Part shown: positions 6,088 to 12,874 of the stretch, one piece after another
Numbering within the stretch: the stretch's first letter is position 1
How the letters are laid out: each line of letters starts with the position of its first letter
Assembly (NCBI GenBank): GCA_003660975.1
Contig: QMVG01000007.1
Coordinates: forward strand, 1-42,634
Reading direction: 5' to 3'
Length of the DNA stretch: 42,634 nucleotides
From: Microcaldota archaeon
GTDB lineage: Archaea; B1Sed10-29; B47-G15
Notes under the pieces: model-generated
What the model saw: only the letters and a program-made list of their open reading frames with translations
What the model was told of the DNA's origin: nothing
The model's database searches: none
Made by a program: the position numbers and the translations under genes

Positions 6088-6143
6088 GAAAACACCCCAT
6101 AAAGCTTTTTAAATAAAAGCTATTTATAGTTTTGGTGTTTTTC

Positions 6144-7085
6144 ATGAAAAAAACAAGGAACGCAAAAAGGACAAGACCTGTGCAAAAGAAGTCAAAAAGC
6201 AAGTCAAGAGCAGTGTACTTCGCGAGCGCTTTAATAGTTGGCATAATACTAGCCACTGCAAGTGTGAGCCCACGCGCAGTAGGCATTATGAAAAGACCAA
6301 GCTGTTCAATGATTGAGGACAGGCCTTGTTACCAGACCGTCTACACATTTAGGAGCGGAAGGAGCATAACACGTGTGTGGAGGAACACAAGGCATGCAGA
6401 GTGGTTTTGGCAGAGGTTCTGCGAGAACAAGAGGCTTGCAAAAATAAGTGAAAATGAAGAGGAAACAGTAATATGTCCTGAAAGCAAGGAGAAGGTTTAC
6501 GACTGCCAGATAGGAAGGTCAAAAAGGCTACACATCCTTAAATATGCTGGAGAATGTAAAGCAGTGGAGATAAATCCGCTAAAACCGCCTAAAGGAAGCT
6601 TATACAATCCAGGCGAGATAAGCATTGAGGGAAACGACAGCTCATCATTAGAAACTAACTGCAAGCCCAAGGCAAAGGAGCAACTTACTGCAATAGAGAG
6701 TTTAGCAAAAGCCCTTGATGAAGACAAAAAAGCAGATGTGTATACAGACCACGGCATAGATGAGGTAACCCATTGGTATTACACAGGAGAGCTTGGAGAT
6801 TACTATATAGATATCCACTTTTACGGGTATATGGACAACGGGGAAGAGCATCAATTCCAGGGAAAGTACACGCTTAGATACAAAGAGGGCACTAAGCAAA
6901 TAGAGAGGCATTACGAAGCTTACTACTGGGAGGACTTACCAAAAGGGGCTTTTTTCAAGGATTATGGCTATAAATTGTACAGCAGTTACAGCGATGGGGA
7001 GAAAAACGAATCATGCGAGTGCAAGGACTACACATTGGGGGACACACCAGCGCGTGTCGGCTGTGAGGGCATCTGCTGTCACTAA
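6144..7085 (+). CDS. Anchored Cys-rich extracellular protein
   Basis: The frame begins at ATG 6144 (MKKTRNAK), preferred over in-frame TTG/GTG codons 9-12 nt earlier because GGTG lies just upstream. The 313-residue protein has a strongly basic N-terminus, one membrane helix (about 22-42), and a large exported part with many cysteines (for example PSCSMIEDRPC, CPESKEKVYDC, ESCECKDY and a terminal CEGICCH). The cysteines suggest disulfides outside the cell. No family is recognised. The basic/TM start overlaps head-to-head with nth, so the two share a short divergent promoter region. Confidence 0.7.
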   Translation: MKKTRNAKRTRPVQKKSKSKSRAVYFASALIVGIILATASVSPRAVGIMKRPSCSMIEDRPCYQTVYTFRSGRSITRVWRNTRHAEWFWQRFCENKRLAKISENEEETVICPESKEKVYDCQIGRSKRLHILKYAGECKAVEINPLKPPKGSLYNPGEISIEGNDSSSLETNCKPKAKEQLTAIESLAKALDEDKKADVYTDHGIDEVTHWYYTGELGDYYIDIHFYGYMDNGEEHQFQGKYTLRYKEGTKQIERHYEAYYWEDLPKGAFFKDYGYKLYSSYSDGEKNESCECKDYTLGDTPARVGCEGICCH

Positions 7086-7502
7086 TCACCACGGACTAGG
7101 TTCGTAGCTGAGCGAAATGTTAATTGATTTGTCTATTTGATATGAGGAAACACCAACATTTGCCAACTTGCCGTCCACGTAAAAAAGCCAGAACAAACCT
7201 TTTTCCTTATTTTCTTCAACCCCTCCTATTGATGTGATATAAGCACCCATGCCGGGATATGTTTTGTAGCGTAACTCGTCTACATTATCTCTTATGACAT
7301 CAAAGACTGTAGAACCCCTTTCAACAGAAATATTCTTAAAAATATCTTCTCCAGCCCCGTTAAATAAGATTTTTAGGTATACAGTTACATTTCCGCTTTC
7401 ATTATGGGTATTTACTCCTGTGTTTATTGGAAATATATAGAAAAAAAGAAGGGACAATATAACTATGCTAATGAGTAATATTTTGCCTTCCCAATGTTTC
7501 AA
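7086..7502 (-). CDS. Membrane-anchored DUF4430 protein
   Basis: A 138-residue protein with an N-terminal membrane anchor (about 7-25) and a single DUF4430 domain (about 38-135), the fold of the C-terminal beta domain of animal transcobalamin and intrinsic factor. The diagnostic segment is FWLFYVDGKLANVGVSSY near residues 104-121. Its ATG overlaps the stop of the 719-residue B12-capture-like protein by 4 bp, so it is the last gene of the operon. A role as accessory cobalamin-binding or docking protein at the membrane is an inference from fold and neighbours. Confidence 0.8.
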   Translation of the reverse strand: MKHWEGKILLISIVILSLLFFYIFPINTGVNTHNESGNVTVYLKILFNGAGEDIFKNISVERGSTVFDVIRDNVDELRYKTYPGMGAYITSIGGVEENKEKGLFWLFYVDGKLANVGVSSYQIDKSINISLSYEPSPW

Positions 7503-9658
7503 TAAAATCCCCTTCTATTTTTCATGAAAAACAGATATAAAAGAATAACAAGTACAACAGAAATTAAAATAAGAAGCAACTCAAATACGTGGAAATCAAT
7601 ACGTGCTGTTGCCATGGCTGTGATTGGCTTATTTTCAGCTTCCCTTGTCTTGCTTGCTTTACTTGTATTGTCTTTAGCTGTACGGCCTTTGCTACTTAGC
7701 CCTTCCCTGCCCTCATAAACAGAGTATGGGCTTTGGCCGCCTGCTGTTGCTTTTTCTCCTGTTCTTTCATTGAGTGTGGTATTGCTCGTGCTGTAACTTT
7801 CATTCTCAGAACTTGCGTTCAAAGAAGAGACATTAACAGCTGCATTTTCAGTTTTGTTCACACTCTCGTTTCCTTTGCTCTTGTTTTTGAATAGAGTTGG
7901 AGGTATATATGTATATCCGCCACCGCCGTACGAAGAACCTCCACTTCTCTTTTTTTCCAAGACAGTTGTGCTAGCTGAAGCCCTTGCAATGTTCCCAGCA
8001 AGGTCTTTGCACTCTCCGTAGACTCTCTTTTCGCCAGTGCCTGGGCTGAGAGTCCATGAGACATTAGTGGGGCTCTGCCATGAAGACCATGTGGAATTAT
8101 CATTACTATACCTACACTTGTAAGCCAGTTTTGCATCTGGCACTATGACAACAGAGTGTGAATATGCATCATCGTGTTTTAGGGAAAATGAAAAGTATGG
8201 TGCTCTGTTGTCAAAATGTCTATTTGTCAATGTCATCAATGCCAGAGCAGTATCCATGGCATTTGACTTGTTCTCTCTCTGATAGTTCCTGTTAAAGCCA
8301 AAGTCAGACATCTGGAGCTTTTTTAAACAAATTAATGCTTTGCTAACATTGCTTGAATTTCCATAGCCGTAACTTCTTAGAGCCATAACAGCAAATGCTG
8401 TTACTCTCGGATCATCCGGGCTGCTCTGGTTTTCATCATAAGACCAACAACCATTGCTTCTCTGGACGGACAGGATATATGACAAAGCCCTTGAACTGTT
8501 GCTGTCGTTCACATTCTGCATAGCAAAAGCGAGAAGAGATTCTGCAGTAAATTCAATGGGCTTAGGCTTGCACAAAGAACAGCCAGGAACTATATATGGT
8601 GTGCTTCCGTTGGGCATCTGAGAATTCCTTATGAACTGCGTTGCGTTTGTTTGGATATTTTTCATAGATAGCGCCATAACAACCCAGTCTGTTGAATCTA
8701 TGTCTGTAGAGCCAAAGAAACCAAAGCCGGTGTTGTTAGCTTGTTGGGAGAGAATGTAATCTATAGGAGTATCTCCACTGCTGTTCTGGATATGTGAAAC
8801 ATTAAAGCCCACATGCTCAAGAGCCAAGACATATGCAGATGTTGTCAAAATATCAACGCCCCAGCCAGATGACCAACCTGGTCCTGGATTGCTAAGCACG
8901 CATGAATTATTAGCATATCTTATTGACTCATTTGCTAAAATGCCTGCATCATACATGCCCATCATTCCAAAAGGGTGATTCCAAGCAGCAAATCCACCAA
9001 TCTTGCCACTACTTGCATTAAGATTGTATAAAAGCCAAGACATAAGCTCTTTTGTCATGTTTTGTTTGTCAAGCACGCGTACTGTGCTTATCAAATTCCA
9101 ATTTGAGTCATAAGTTGCATTTACTGTGAAATTAACGTAATGCCTTGCCTTTAATGTGTATCTGCCAGAAGCCAAGTGTAAAGAGACATTGAGCTCTCCA
9201 TTAGAATCTGTGTTTCCTATGCTAACGTTGCTTCTGCAATCCGTAAAATTACACAGTATTATGCTAACATTTGCGATGCCTGAATTGTTCTCATAGCTAA
9301 CATTAACGTAAAGTCCTGTTGAGTCTGGCATATATCTTAGCTCTATCGTGTCATTGCCTTGTAAAATATATGAGCTTACACCTACCATTGATAGACTCCC
9401 ATTAACGTAAAAAGCCCAATAGTCATTGCCCCTTGGAGCAACCCCGTTAACAGCTGTTATGTTATATCCAGCTCCAGAGGAATAATAAGAAAGGCTCAAG
9501 GTTGAATTAAAAGCGTCAAATGCTGTCTGATTTGAAGACGCATTGAAACTAGTGTTCACATCTGACCCCAAGAAAGTGGGAAAGTCAGCCACAACACTTA
9601 CATTAAAAGCAAATGCAACGTGCATAGCTAAAGCTAAGAGTATCACAAATCTCCTCAT
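7499..9658 (-). CDS. Intrinsic-factor-like surface protein
   Basis: The 719-residue protein has, in order: a signal peptide (1-17); a DUF4430 domain (about 18-110, with DYWAFYVNGSLSMVGVSSY); a carboxypeptidase-regulatory-like beta domain (about 113-185); an alpha/alpha-barrel of prenyltransferase/squalene-cyclase-like repeats (about 200-485); an Ig-like module (about 487-570); a Ser/Thr/Asn-rich, glycosylation-prone stalk; and a C-terminal membrane helix (about 689-712). DUF4430 plus alpha/alpha-barrel is the domain pair of transcobalamin and intrinsic factor, in reversed order. It sits between an ECF S-component and a second DUF4430 gene, downstream of B12 adenosylation and B12-dependent reductase genes. 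A strong GGAGGTG site precedes the ATG. B12 capture is inferred, not shown. Confidence 0.8.
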   Translation of the reverse strand: MRRFVILLALAMHVAFAFNVSVVADFPTFLGSDVNTSFNASSNQTAFDAFNSTLSLSYYSSGAGYNITAVNGVAPRGNDYWAFYVNGSLSMVGVSSYILQGNDTIELRYMPDSTGLYVNVSYENNSGIANVSIILCNFTDCRSNVSIGNTDSNGELNVSLHLASGRYTLKARHYVNFTVNATYDSNWNLISTVRVLDKQNMTKELMSWLLYNLNASSGKIGGFAAWNHPFGMMGMYDAGILANESIRYANNSCVLSNPGPGWSSGWGVDILTTSAYVLALEHVGFNVSHIQNSSGDTPIDYILSQQANNTGFGFFGSTDIDSTDWVVMALSMKNIQTNATQFIRNSQMPNGSTPYIVPGCSLCKPKPIEFTAESLLAFAMQNVNDSNSSRALSYILSVQRSNGCWSYDENQSSPDDPRVTAFAVMALRSYGYGNSSNVSKALICLKKLQMSDFGFNRNYQRENKSNAMDTALALMTLTNRHFDNRAPYFSFSLKHDDAYSHSVVIVPDAKLAYKCRYSNDNSTWSSWQSPTNVSWTLSPGTGEKRVYGECKDLAGNIARASASTTVLEKKRSGGSSYGGGGYTYIPPTLFKNKSKGNESVNKTENAAVNVSSLNASSENESYSTSNTTLNERTGEKATAGGQSPYSVYEGREGLSSKGRTAKDNTSKASKTREAENKPITAMATARIDFHVFELLLILISVVLVILLYLFFMKNRRGFY

Positions 9659-9677
9659 GAATTACACCTCCTATTCC

Positions 9678-10199
9678 TCAGGTTAGATACACTGCCTTGC
9701 TAATCTCCTCTACCTTGTCTTTCACAACATCAATGAAAAGGGCAGCGTGCGGTAAGCACAAGGGAACTATAACAGTATTGCCAATTATCTGTATTGCAGC
9801 AAATGGGATTGCCATTATTGTTGCCAACAAAAGGGATTGACCTGTAATCAAAGGCCAAGCTGAATTCACTATTACCTGATAAAGCAAGGTGAGAAATGCT
9901 GCTGAGGTAGCCAGCTTTTTCCTATCCTTTATATATGATTTCGGCAGGAACCCTGAAATAAAACCCACCAAGCCAAAAGCGGAAAATGTGAAGAACGTCC
10001 ACGGGCCTGGAAGGCCTATGTAGAGGTCGCTAAGCAAAAGCGCCAAAGAGCCTGTTAGAAAACCCTGGATTGGACCATATCTCAAACCAGCCAACATGGC
10101 AAAGGCTGTTATTGGTTCTAGGTTTGGAATGCCTGCCATAATAGCTCTGGCCACGGCGGCGGATGATACTAATGCGGGTAAGGTAAATTTTCCCTTCAC
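9678..10199 (-). CDS. ECF transporter S-component, probably cobalamin
   Basis: A 173-residue hydrophobic protein with about six membrane helices and ECF substrate-binding-subunit character: small-residue-rich helices, the segment PITAFAMLAGLRYGPIQGFLTG (about 28-49) and a LSDLY stretch. S-components bind a vitamin and dock onto a shared EcfA/A'/T module, which is not in this window. The start is GTG 10199 with GAGGTG 5 nt upstream. Its place between the adenosyltransferase and the DUF4430 surface proteins makes cobalamin or a precursor the likely cargo; other vitamins cannot be excluded. Confidence 0.82.
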   Translation of the reverse strand: MKGKFTLPALVSSAAVARAIMAGIPNLEPITAFAMLAGLRYGPIQGFLTGSLALLLSDLYIGLPGPWTFFTFSAFGLVGFISGFLPKSYIKDRKKLATSAAFLTLLYQVIVNSAWPLITGQSLLLATIMAIPFAAIQIIGNTVIVPLCLPHAALFIDVVKDKVEEISKAVYLT

Positions 10200-10208
10200 A
10201 TAAACACC

Positions 10209-10760
10209 TCAGTACTCTATTCCTCTTCTTGCTCTCATTCCTTTTTGATAGGAGTGTTTTATTTCTCTCATCTCTGTTACGAGGTCAGCAGCATTTATCA
10301 ATTCCTCTTTTGCTTTTCGCCCTGTTATCACCAACTCAACCTGTTTAGGCTTCTCCTTTATCAAAGACAGCACATCATCAATGGAGATATATCCCATATG
10401 CACCGCCACGTTCAGCTCGTCAAGTATCACCAAGTCATATTGCCCACTCATAATGGTTTTTCTTGCTTCCTTAAGACCTTCCAAGGCCCAATGCTTGTCC
10501 TTGTCAGGGACTGGAGCAAGGCAAGACGGATCTGGTTCACCACTGGGGAGTGCTGGGCATGGCCTGCCGTATTGTTTTACATAAACGCCTAATTTCTTAA
10601 GCGATTTAAGTTCCCCTGAAGGATATGACTTGAGGAACTGAAGCAAGGCAACGTTCAGTGAAGAGCCCCTGGCTCTCACAGCAAGCCCAATTGCGGATGT
10701 CGTTTTTCCCTTGCCATTTCCTGTATAGACCTGGACGATTCCTTTGCTCAAATGTGGCAT
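10209..10760 (-). CDS. cobA: Cob(I)alamin adenosyltransferase, CobA/BtuR type
   Basis: The 183-residue protein has the P-loop TGNGKGKTTSAIG (residues 13-25) typical of CobA/CobO/BtuR, which transfers the adenosyl group of ATP to cob(I)alamin to make coenzyme B12. The Walker B-like segment is LVILDELN (about 110-117), followed by VAVHMGYI. The length is normal for the family. Its ATG overlaps the last 13 bp of nrdJ, and a G-rich site (GGGGG) lies about 9 nt upstream inside nrdJ. The coupling places coenzyme manufacture directly with the enzyme that consumes it. Confidence 0.93.
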   Translation of the reverse strand: MPHLSKGIVQVYTGNGKGKTTSAIGLAVRARGSSLNVALLQFLKSYPSGELKSLKKLGVYVKQYGRPCPALPSGEPDPSCLAPVPDKDKHWALEGLKEARKTIMSGQYDLVILDELNVAVHMGYISIDDVLSLIKEKPKQVELVITGRKAKEELINAADLVTEMREIKHSYQKGMRARRGIEY

Positions 10761-12874
10761 GTTGGGCAGCCCCCTGCATAATCTGCTTCAACTGTTACCT
10801 TGCCATTTTCGTAGCTTATAGGCCCTTGCTTCTCTTTTTCGGATTTGCTCACGCCTATGTTTAGCACCTGCTCTGCCCTTGAGCCATCTCTGTATATCGT
10901 TATGCCCTTACATCCCATCTCATAAGCCATTAGGTATGCTTTTCTAACATCATCAACAGTTGCTGAGTTTGGCATATTGATGGTTTTGCTTACAGCGCTG
11001 TCAACATATTTCTGGAAAACTGCCTGCATCTTGATGTGGTCCTCTGGCTTGATATCAAGAGCAGTGACAAATATTCTTTTAACATCATCAGGTACCTCTT
11101 CCATATCCTGAACAGAACCTTTTGCAGCAATCCTCTCCATTAAGGCCTCTGAATAGAAACCTCTTTCCCTTGCTACCTTTTCAAAGTAAGGATTAACTTC
11201 CAGCATAGGCTCTCCATCAAGTATATTTTTCCTAACAAAGCAGATTGCAAACAATGGCTCTATGCTGCTGCTGCATCCTGCAATAATGCTAGTTGTACCT
11301 GTTGGAGCTATGGTGGTAACAGCTGCATTTCTCATAGGAATTCCCTGCTTTCCATATATGCTCCTGTCCCACGCAGGGAAGTTTCCTCTCTTTTTTGCAA
11401 GCTCCTGCGAGGCCTTGTGGCTCTCTTCTTTTATAAACTTCATCAGCTTTTCAGCTAACTGCAAAGCTTCTTCTGAATCATATGGTATGCCCAATTGAAT
11501 TAACATGTCTGCAAAGCCCATAACACCTAGCCCTATTTTCCTTGTCGTTTTAGACATCTCCTCTATCTGTTTCAGAGGAAACTTGTTCATATCAATAACA
11601 TTGTCCAAAAAGTGAACGCCTTTGTGGACGAGCTCTCTTAACTTATCCCAATTAACATCTCCATCTTTGACGAGCTTGGCCAGGTTTATGTGCCCCAAAT
11701 TGCAAGACTCATATGGAAGTAATGGCTGTTCCCCGCAGGGGTTTGTTGCCTCTATTTCTCCTAAGTCTGGTGTTGGGTTGTGCTTGTTTATTGTATCAAG
11801 AAATATCATGCCAGGGTCTCCGTTCTTCCAGGCCATATTCACTATCAAATCAAAAACCTGCTTGGCGTTCAATTTGCCTACTGGTTTTTTTGTTCTGGGA
11901 TTTATGAGCTCGTAATCTTCTCCTTTCTTCACGGCCTCCATGAACTCATCTGTAGCTCCAACAGAGATATTGAAGTTCGTGAGACTCTTGCCATCCATCT
12001 TGGCAGTTATGAACTCAACTATGTCTGGATGGTCCACGCGCAGCACGCCCATGTTCGCTCCTCTTCTCTTCCCTCCCTGCTTGATCACATCAGTAGTCAC
12101 ATCAAAGACTCTCATAAATGAAACAGGTCCTGAGGCCACGCCTCTTGTGGTCTTCACAACATCTCCTTTTGGCCTTAACCTGGAAAATGAGAAGCCAGTG
12201 CCTCCTCCACTCTGGTGTATCTTGGCAGTGTATTTAACAGCATCAAAGATGCCATCCAAAGAATCCTCAACGGGAAGCACAAAGCAAGCAGAAAGCTGCT
12301 GAATCACTGTGCCTGCGTTCATCAAACAAGGGCTATTGGGTATGAACTCAAAATTAGACATCATATCAAAGAATTCTTCCTCAGTTTTCTTTACATTTGC
12401 GTTTGGGTCATAAAGAAGGTCGGCCTGGGCTATGTTCTTGGCCACTCTCCTAAACATCTCGGCAGGGGTTTCTATAACCTTGCCTGTTAGGTCTTTTTGA
12501 AGATACCTCTTCTTCAAAACGGTCATTGCATTTTCCATTTTCTGAATTTTCTCATTGAGAGCTCTTATCTTTCTCAATCTCGCTCTCTCTTCCCTGTAAA
12601 GTATATATGCTTTCGCAACCTCTGCCTGACCTGCCATTATAAGGACTGTTTCAACTATGTCCTGAATGTCTTCAACACCTGGTATCGTATGCCCATCAAA
12701 CCTGTCCTCCAGCTCTTGAACGACCTTGTCAGTTAATGCTTTTGCAAGCGTTTCATTCTTTTTGCCCACAGCTTCCATTGCCTTCAAAATAGCAATAGTA
12801 ATTTTCGTTGGGTCAAAATCAACGATGTTGCCCTCTCTTTTCCTAATCTGCCTCAAACTGTAATCTACTACCAT
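10748..12874 (-). CDS. nrdJ: Adenosylcobalamin-dependent ribonucleotide reductase
   Basis: The 708-residue class II reductase makes deoxynucleotides using a thiyl radical generated from coenzyme B12. An ATP-cone (about 4-95) precedes the barrel. Cys197 (QLSACFVLP), Cys380 and Glu382 in NPCGEQ, and Cys391 in ESCNLG match the reducible pair, thiyl Cys and catalytic Glu; the 11-residue gap between Cys380 and Cys391 agrees with the family. The C-terminal tail has the redox pair Cys703-Cys706. It heads the B12 operon. The minus-strand leader (about 12875-12950) has a TATA-like TTTTAATATAA near 12940-12955 and no visible cobalamin riboswitch. Confidence 0.96.

Follow-up and report, generated by a model that had tools for sequence, protein, structure and literature searches.

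Gene content of the operon

The window, a stretch of 42,634 nucleotides from a Microcaldota archaeon, carries five tightly packed genes on the minus strand, which run from position 12874 to position 7086 in the following order:

10748–12874, minus strand: nrdJ, 708 amino acids, class II (adenosylcobalamin-dependent) ribonucleotide reductase with an N-terminal ATP cone (NF006417, TIGR02504, PF03477)
10209–10760, minus strand: cobA/btuR-type ATP:corrinoid adenosyltransferase, 183 amino acids (PF02572, TIGR00708)
9678–10199, minus strand: CbrT-like ECF S-component, 173 amino acids, predicted B12-binding membrane translocator with six helices (PF07155, PF12822)
7499–9658, minus strand: surface protein of 719 amino acids with a DUF4430 domain and an alpha/alpha-toroid (PF14478, PF00432)
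7086–7502, minus strand: short DUF4430 protein of 138 amino acids with a signal or membrane anchor at the N-terminus, candidate CbrS-like capture subunit (PF14478)

The nrdJ and cobA genes overlap by 13 nt and the last two genes by 4 nt, whereas cobA and the S-component gene are separated by 9 nt, and the S-component gene and that of the 719-amino-acid protein by 19 nt. The families were assigned with Pfam and NCBIfam models, with matches above the curated cut-offs. The ORFs, overlaps, and family matches all agree with the single-strand five-gene operon of the original prediction, which was based on the sequence alone; its five gene identities were correct, but it overlooked the PF00432 toroid domain of the 719-amino-acid protein and a second NrdJ elsewhere in the assembly. 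Shine–Dalgarno-like stretches precede several of the operon starts, the clearest being AGGAGGTG, ahead of the gene for the 719-amino-acid protein. The only Rfam match in the whole window was a tRNA, and no cobalamin riboswitch was found at the gathering threshold. On the opposite strand, a 317-amino-acid ORF with a hydrophobic N-terminus (6132–7085) is convergent with the operon and stops right at the end of its last gene; it had no Pfam or NCBIfam match. The window is archaeal by its gene content, which includes both topoisomerase VI subunits (A and B), a RIO1 kinase, a PNO1/KRR1-type KH protein, and an ERCC4-type helicase. The source assembly (G000) comprises 1.33 Mb in 130 contigs and is 89.7% complete.

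Adenosyltransferase and ribonucleotide reductase

The CobA protein scored 203 bits with PF02572 and exceeded the cut-off of TIGR00708, matched the solved adenosyltransferases 4HUT and 1G5R, and retains the P-loop GNGKGKTT at residue 14. NrdJ exceeded the curated cut-offs of NF006417 (1032 bits) and TIGR02504 (783 bits), matched PF03477, and aligned along the enzyme with the class II NrdJ of Thermotoga maritima (1XJK, E = 5e-141). The motifs LSACFV, NPCGE, CNLG, and C-terminal CPTC are all kept, and the redox and thiyl cysteines of a class II ribonucleotide reductase are present. A second class II NrdJ of 831 amino acids, 47% identical to that of the operon, is encoded on the 4.5-kb contig C47 (L075:47-2542); among the NrdJs compared, it was nearest to that of G018, another genome of the class. 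With a GC content of 46.8%, this contig may or may not belong to the source genome. The second enzyme weakens the idea that the operon is tied exclusively to its own NrdJ. NrdD-like proteins of approximately 600–655 amino acids that have an ATP cone but lack a recognizable glycyl-radical motif (L077:1800-3614, L075:2532-4460, and L021:10591-12558) are widespread in the class, next to real reductases. Those on contigs C2 and C47 were considered as working class III enzymes and rejected because this motif is missing.

DUF4430 surface proteins

The 719-amino-acid protein consists of a signal peptide, a DUF4430 domain (residues 44–109), an alpha/alpha-toroid (approximately residues 200–480), a low-complexity stalk, and a C-terminal transmembrane anchor, with hydrophobic segments at residues 5–23 and 694–712. 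Both surface proteins passed the PF14478 cut-off of 23.8 bits (42.3 bits for the 719-amino-acid protein and 55.2 bits for the 138-amino-acid protein), and PF00432 was also above its cut-off in the larger one. DUF4430 had been equated with the beta domain of transcobalamin and intrinsic factor, and the profile evidence bears this out: a profile of 15 short DUF4430 relatives matched transcobalamin-1 (E = 8e-8), transcobalamin-2 (E = 2e-4), and intrinsic factor (E = 0.04). The domain was present in 102 of the 394 archaeal genomes sampled. It also occurs at the C-terminus of ArsR-type HTH proteins of 168–183 amino acids, whose genes are divergent from DUF4430–toroid genes (L111:3848-4363, L113:4360-4866, L114:4032-4541, and L116:4456-5007). 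These proteins, possibly cytoplasmic B12-sensing regulators, match DUF4430 with modest scores; the two tested reached 29.6 and 22.3 bits.

Like transcobalamin and intrinsic factor (4KKI, 2PMV, and 4ZRP), the 719-amino-acid protein joins a DUF4430 beta domain to an alpha/alpha-toroid. However, the order is the reverse of the N-terminal alpha/alpha barrel and following beta domain of those proteins, the toroid is matched by PF00432 instead of a transcobalamin alpha-domain model, and B12 binding is putative. In structural comparisons of its model (pLDDT 62.5), terpene cyclases were the nearest folds and transcobalamin appeared at rank 27, which does not bear out a reading of the toroid as the alpha domain of transcobalamin in particular. 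The best sequence matches were to SQHop-cyclase-type proteins (drimenyl diphosphate synthase), and the protein contains 41 N-glycosylation sequons, where its composition would predict 12.7. These fold and sequence matches, together with the abundant sequons and long stalk of a general surface protein, lend some weight to the possibility that it is an adhesin, an enzyme, or a structural toroid-fold protein that does not bind B12. This alternative deserves to be taken seriously but is the less probable one, given the protein's own DUF4430 domain, the position of its gene directly after that of the S-component, and a relative in G290 whose gene adjoins those for an S-component and a short DUF4430 protein. 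B12 binding by the 719-amino-acid protein is accordingly described here as plausible, and the short DUF4430 protein is the better-supported candidate of the two. The same order of DUF4430 and toroid domains was found in five further archaeal genomes (G037, G058, G170, G290, and G306), and a tblastn search of the DUF4430–toroid region against plasmids gave no match. In G315 and G179, DUF4430 and toroid-like proteins are encoded by separate adjacent genes (L118:2865-8629 and L119:1117-3486), as if the domains of a transcobalamin had been split.

Conservation of the gene neighborhood

The original prediction called for the same gene order in related archaea, and it was found in two genomes of the source genome's class that belong to different families: as nrdJ–cobA–S-component–DUF4430 in G018 (L016), and with the last two genes in the variant order DUF4430–S-component in G009 (L021). 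The recurrence of the gene set in G018 and G009 indicates that the operon order is not due to chance. Although the NrdJ of G009 is 61% identical to that of the operon, its S-component fell on another branch of the S-component tree, a long branch of unsure placement, suggesting that S-components may have been swapped within a stable gene setting. More broadly, S-component and DUF4430 genes are same-strand neighbors, within approximately 1.1 kb, in 23 archaeal genomes. Among these are 15 of 27 loci picked by DUF4430 score alone, the S-component scores being weak in a few. In G014, the two genes are convergent and thus lie on opposite strands.

Several independent settings of DUF4430 genes mostly point to corrinoids. 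The cluster in G025 includes BtuF- and BtuC-family genes as well as CbiB, that in G107 includes a BtuF-family gene, and that in G331 includes both CbiB and CobS. In G240, a DUF4430 gene adjoins EcfT and EcfA, and in G130, one adjoins a whole ECF set. The S-component–DUF4430 pair in G051, an Altiarchaeota genome, adjoins a Meth_synt_2 gene, which is probably a core MetE.

Search for an ECF module

In group II ECF systems, the modules are encoded apart from the S-components. The S-component was originally expected to dock on a shared EcfAA'T module, and a search of the genome for one was proposed. No EcfT (PF02361) was found in the source genome, of which approximately 90% is covered by the assembly; the same search identified EcfT in G009 and G011 and therefore works in the class. 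EcfT was absent from 13 genomes with an S-component and DUF4430 (G000, G014, G018, G035, G053, G058, G076, G078, G098, G188, G235, G269, and G271) and present in 11 others (G009, G027, G031, G051, G069, G198, G215, G228, G249, G290, and G368). Two of the EcfT-less genomes, G035 and G076, are single-contig assemblies that are 98–99% complete, and a third, G058, comprises two contigs. The EcfA model TIGR04520 scored 210–261 bits in seven genomes with EcfT and at most 176 bits in eleven without it, with no overlap between the genomes tested, although none reached the curated cut-off and the comparison is therefore relative. The best score in the source genome was 139 bits, so that no ABC ATPase with an EcfA-like score was found there either. 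On the S-component tree, EcfT status required six changes, at least five of them on well-supported branches, suggesting that the ECF module was repeatedly lost or gained while the S-component was kept.

An EcfAA'T module may nevertheless exist that the assembly does not contain or that has diverged beyond recognition. If the S-component docks on it, the operon would encode a standard group II ECF importer for B12, supplemented by capture proteins. A module could be missing from a genome only 89.7% complete in 130 contigs, although the closed relatives soften this point. The class member G009, whose operon is of the same type, has both EcfT and an EcfA-like ATPase, and the EcfT of G290, at 49.6 bits, demonstrates that divergent forms exist, a still more divergent one of which could escape the model. 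Against this stand the absence of EcfT from 13 genomes with the S-component and DUF4430, including the single- and two-contig ones, and the drop in EcfA-like scores in step with EcfT absence, which together make docking on a shared module the less likely reading. The data fit better with a BtuM-like importer that works alone and relies on CobA for trapping, and we lean slightly towards motor-free transport by the S-component.

Identity and substrate of the S-component

A profile of eight S-components (A1) identified CbrT of Lactobacillus delbrueckii (6FNP) with E = 1.3e-15, followed by FolT with E = 0.67, and CbrT was the only significant match among the solved S-components. With the single sequence, CbrT was likewise first (E = 5e-4, compared with 0.24 for the next match). 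The AlphaFold2 model (pLDDT 87.5) has the six-helix S-component fold, and its best Foldseek matches were all S-components, at a probability of 1.00 even though E exceeded 0.001. FolT, RibU, and ThiT led this search, in which the fold does not discriminate the substrate, and BtuM was found at rank 45 (E = 8.8). BtuM gave no sequence match to the S-component in single-sequence or profile searches. The S-component contains one cysteine, near the C-terminus. B12 is thus the well-supported choice among the candidate substrates, in line with the earlier assignment, and its binding and transport are predicted from sequence relationships. That the protein carries riboflavin, folate, or thiamin and stands in the operon incidentally, as the riboflavin name of its best Pfam match (PF07155) and the leading folds might suggest, is very improbable, given the CbrT match and the repeated pairing with DUF4430, joined by CobA and NrdJ in three genomes.

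Corrinoid supply

The TP_methylase model, which picks up the several methylases of corrin synthesis, identified one gene in the source genome, not the set needed for the corrin pathway. This single gene is probably diphthine synthase, because every member of the class but one has exactly one. None of the 19 class genomes had a FecCD (BtuC family) permease, which was found in 13 of 14 control genomes. Together, one TP_methylase and no FecCD make de novo synthesis and BtuCD uptake unlikely, and the organism likely depends on outside corrinoid, as had been proposed; the full synthesis pathway with BtuFCD that would have spoken against the proposal was not found in the genome. A B12-binding domain match on a 46-kb contig of the assembly (C6, L076) was not accepted as a sign of further B12 use. 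The GC content of this contig is 57.8%, compared with approximately 39–41% in three other contigs sampled, and its genes, named from sequence reading, include a bacterial-looking methylmalonyl-CoA mutase, a sigma-54 regulator, and a branched-chain amino acid transporter, so that it is probably a bacterial contaminant of binning.

Comparison with known systems and proposed pathway

The operon is an archaeal variant of an arrangement already known in lactobacilli. In L. delbrueckii, CbrT has been proven to transport cobalamin and cobinamide and is encoded in the cluster nrdJ–cbrS–cbrT–pduO (PMC5997447). Both loci bring together a class II reductase, an adenosyltransferase, and a B12 S-component (ECF-CbrT, 6FNP), whereas the archaeal operon has CobA/BtuR instead of PduO and an extra anchored DUF4430–toroid protein, and no ECF module was found. 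The rtpR gene of L. rhamnosus has a DUF4430 gene as its neighbor, and the encoded protein appears to be the "additional lipoprotein component of putative cobalamin ECF transporter" listed in a table of the same paper (PMC9963975). BtuM of Thiobacillus denitrificans is a solitary B12 S-component whose gene adjoins btuR; it has been proposed to work by facilitated diffusion, with adenosylation trapping the substrate (PMC6072759). The archaeal protein has in common with it the general S-component fold, an adjacent adenosyltransferase gene, and a genome without EcfT, which is the gene context of a solitary transporter, but differs in its CbrT-like sequence, DUF4430 surface partners, and nrdJ. With BtuFCD, the operon shares a role in corrinoid import, and certain other archaea have DUF4430 genes clustered with BtuF/BtuC-family genes, whereas the class of the source genome has no detected FecCD permease. 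Our literature search for archaeal links between DUF4430 and ECF-type B12 uptake found nothing closer than these bacterial cases.

We infer the following pathway. At the cell surface, the two DUF4430 proteins would capture cobalamin by binding it and then hand it over to the CbrT-like S-component for passage across the membrane. Inside, CobA would adenosylate the cobalamin, both making the active cofactor and trapping it, and NrdJ would use the adenosylcobalamin for deoxyribonucleotide synthesis. Since no ECF motor was found, the S-component probably acts alone in the way proposed for BtuM, through toppling or facilitated diffusion, with adenosylation and binding to the enzyme as the driving force. 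Of the complete outside-to-enzyme path originally predicted, the sequence of capture, import, adenosylation, and use is supported, whereas docking on a shared ECF module is not, and NrdJ is not the sole reductase. B12 scavenging is a highly likely function of the operon, and the whole explanation, in which a small-genome archaeon uses the operon to scavenge corrinoids and the import step is motor-free, is a probable one. More speculatively, small-genome archaea might have repeatedly lost the ECF motor while keeping CbrT-like S-components and transcobalamin-type surface proteins, with capture and CobA trapping replacing ATP in motor-free uptake and the DUF4430–toroid protein serving as a prokaryotic two-domain transcobalamin analogue of reversed order.

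These results suggest a likely function, corrinoid capture, for archaeal DUF4430 and a concrete way in which archaea unable to make B12 could take it up. If the motor is truly absent, solitary S-component transport would extend beyond BtuM and BioY, and ATP-free substrate movement would become directly testable.
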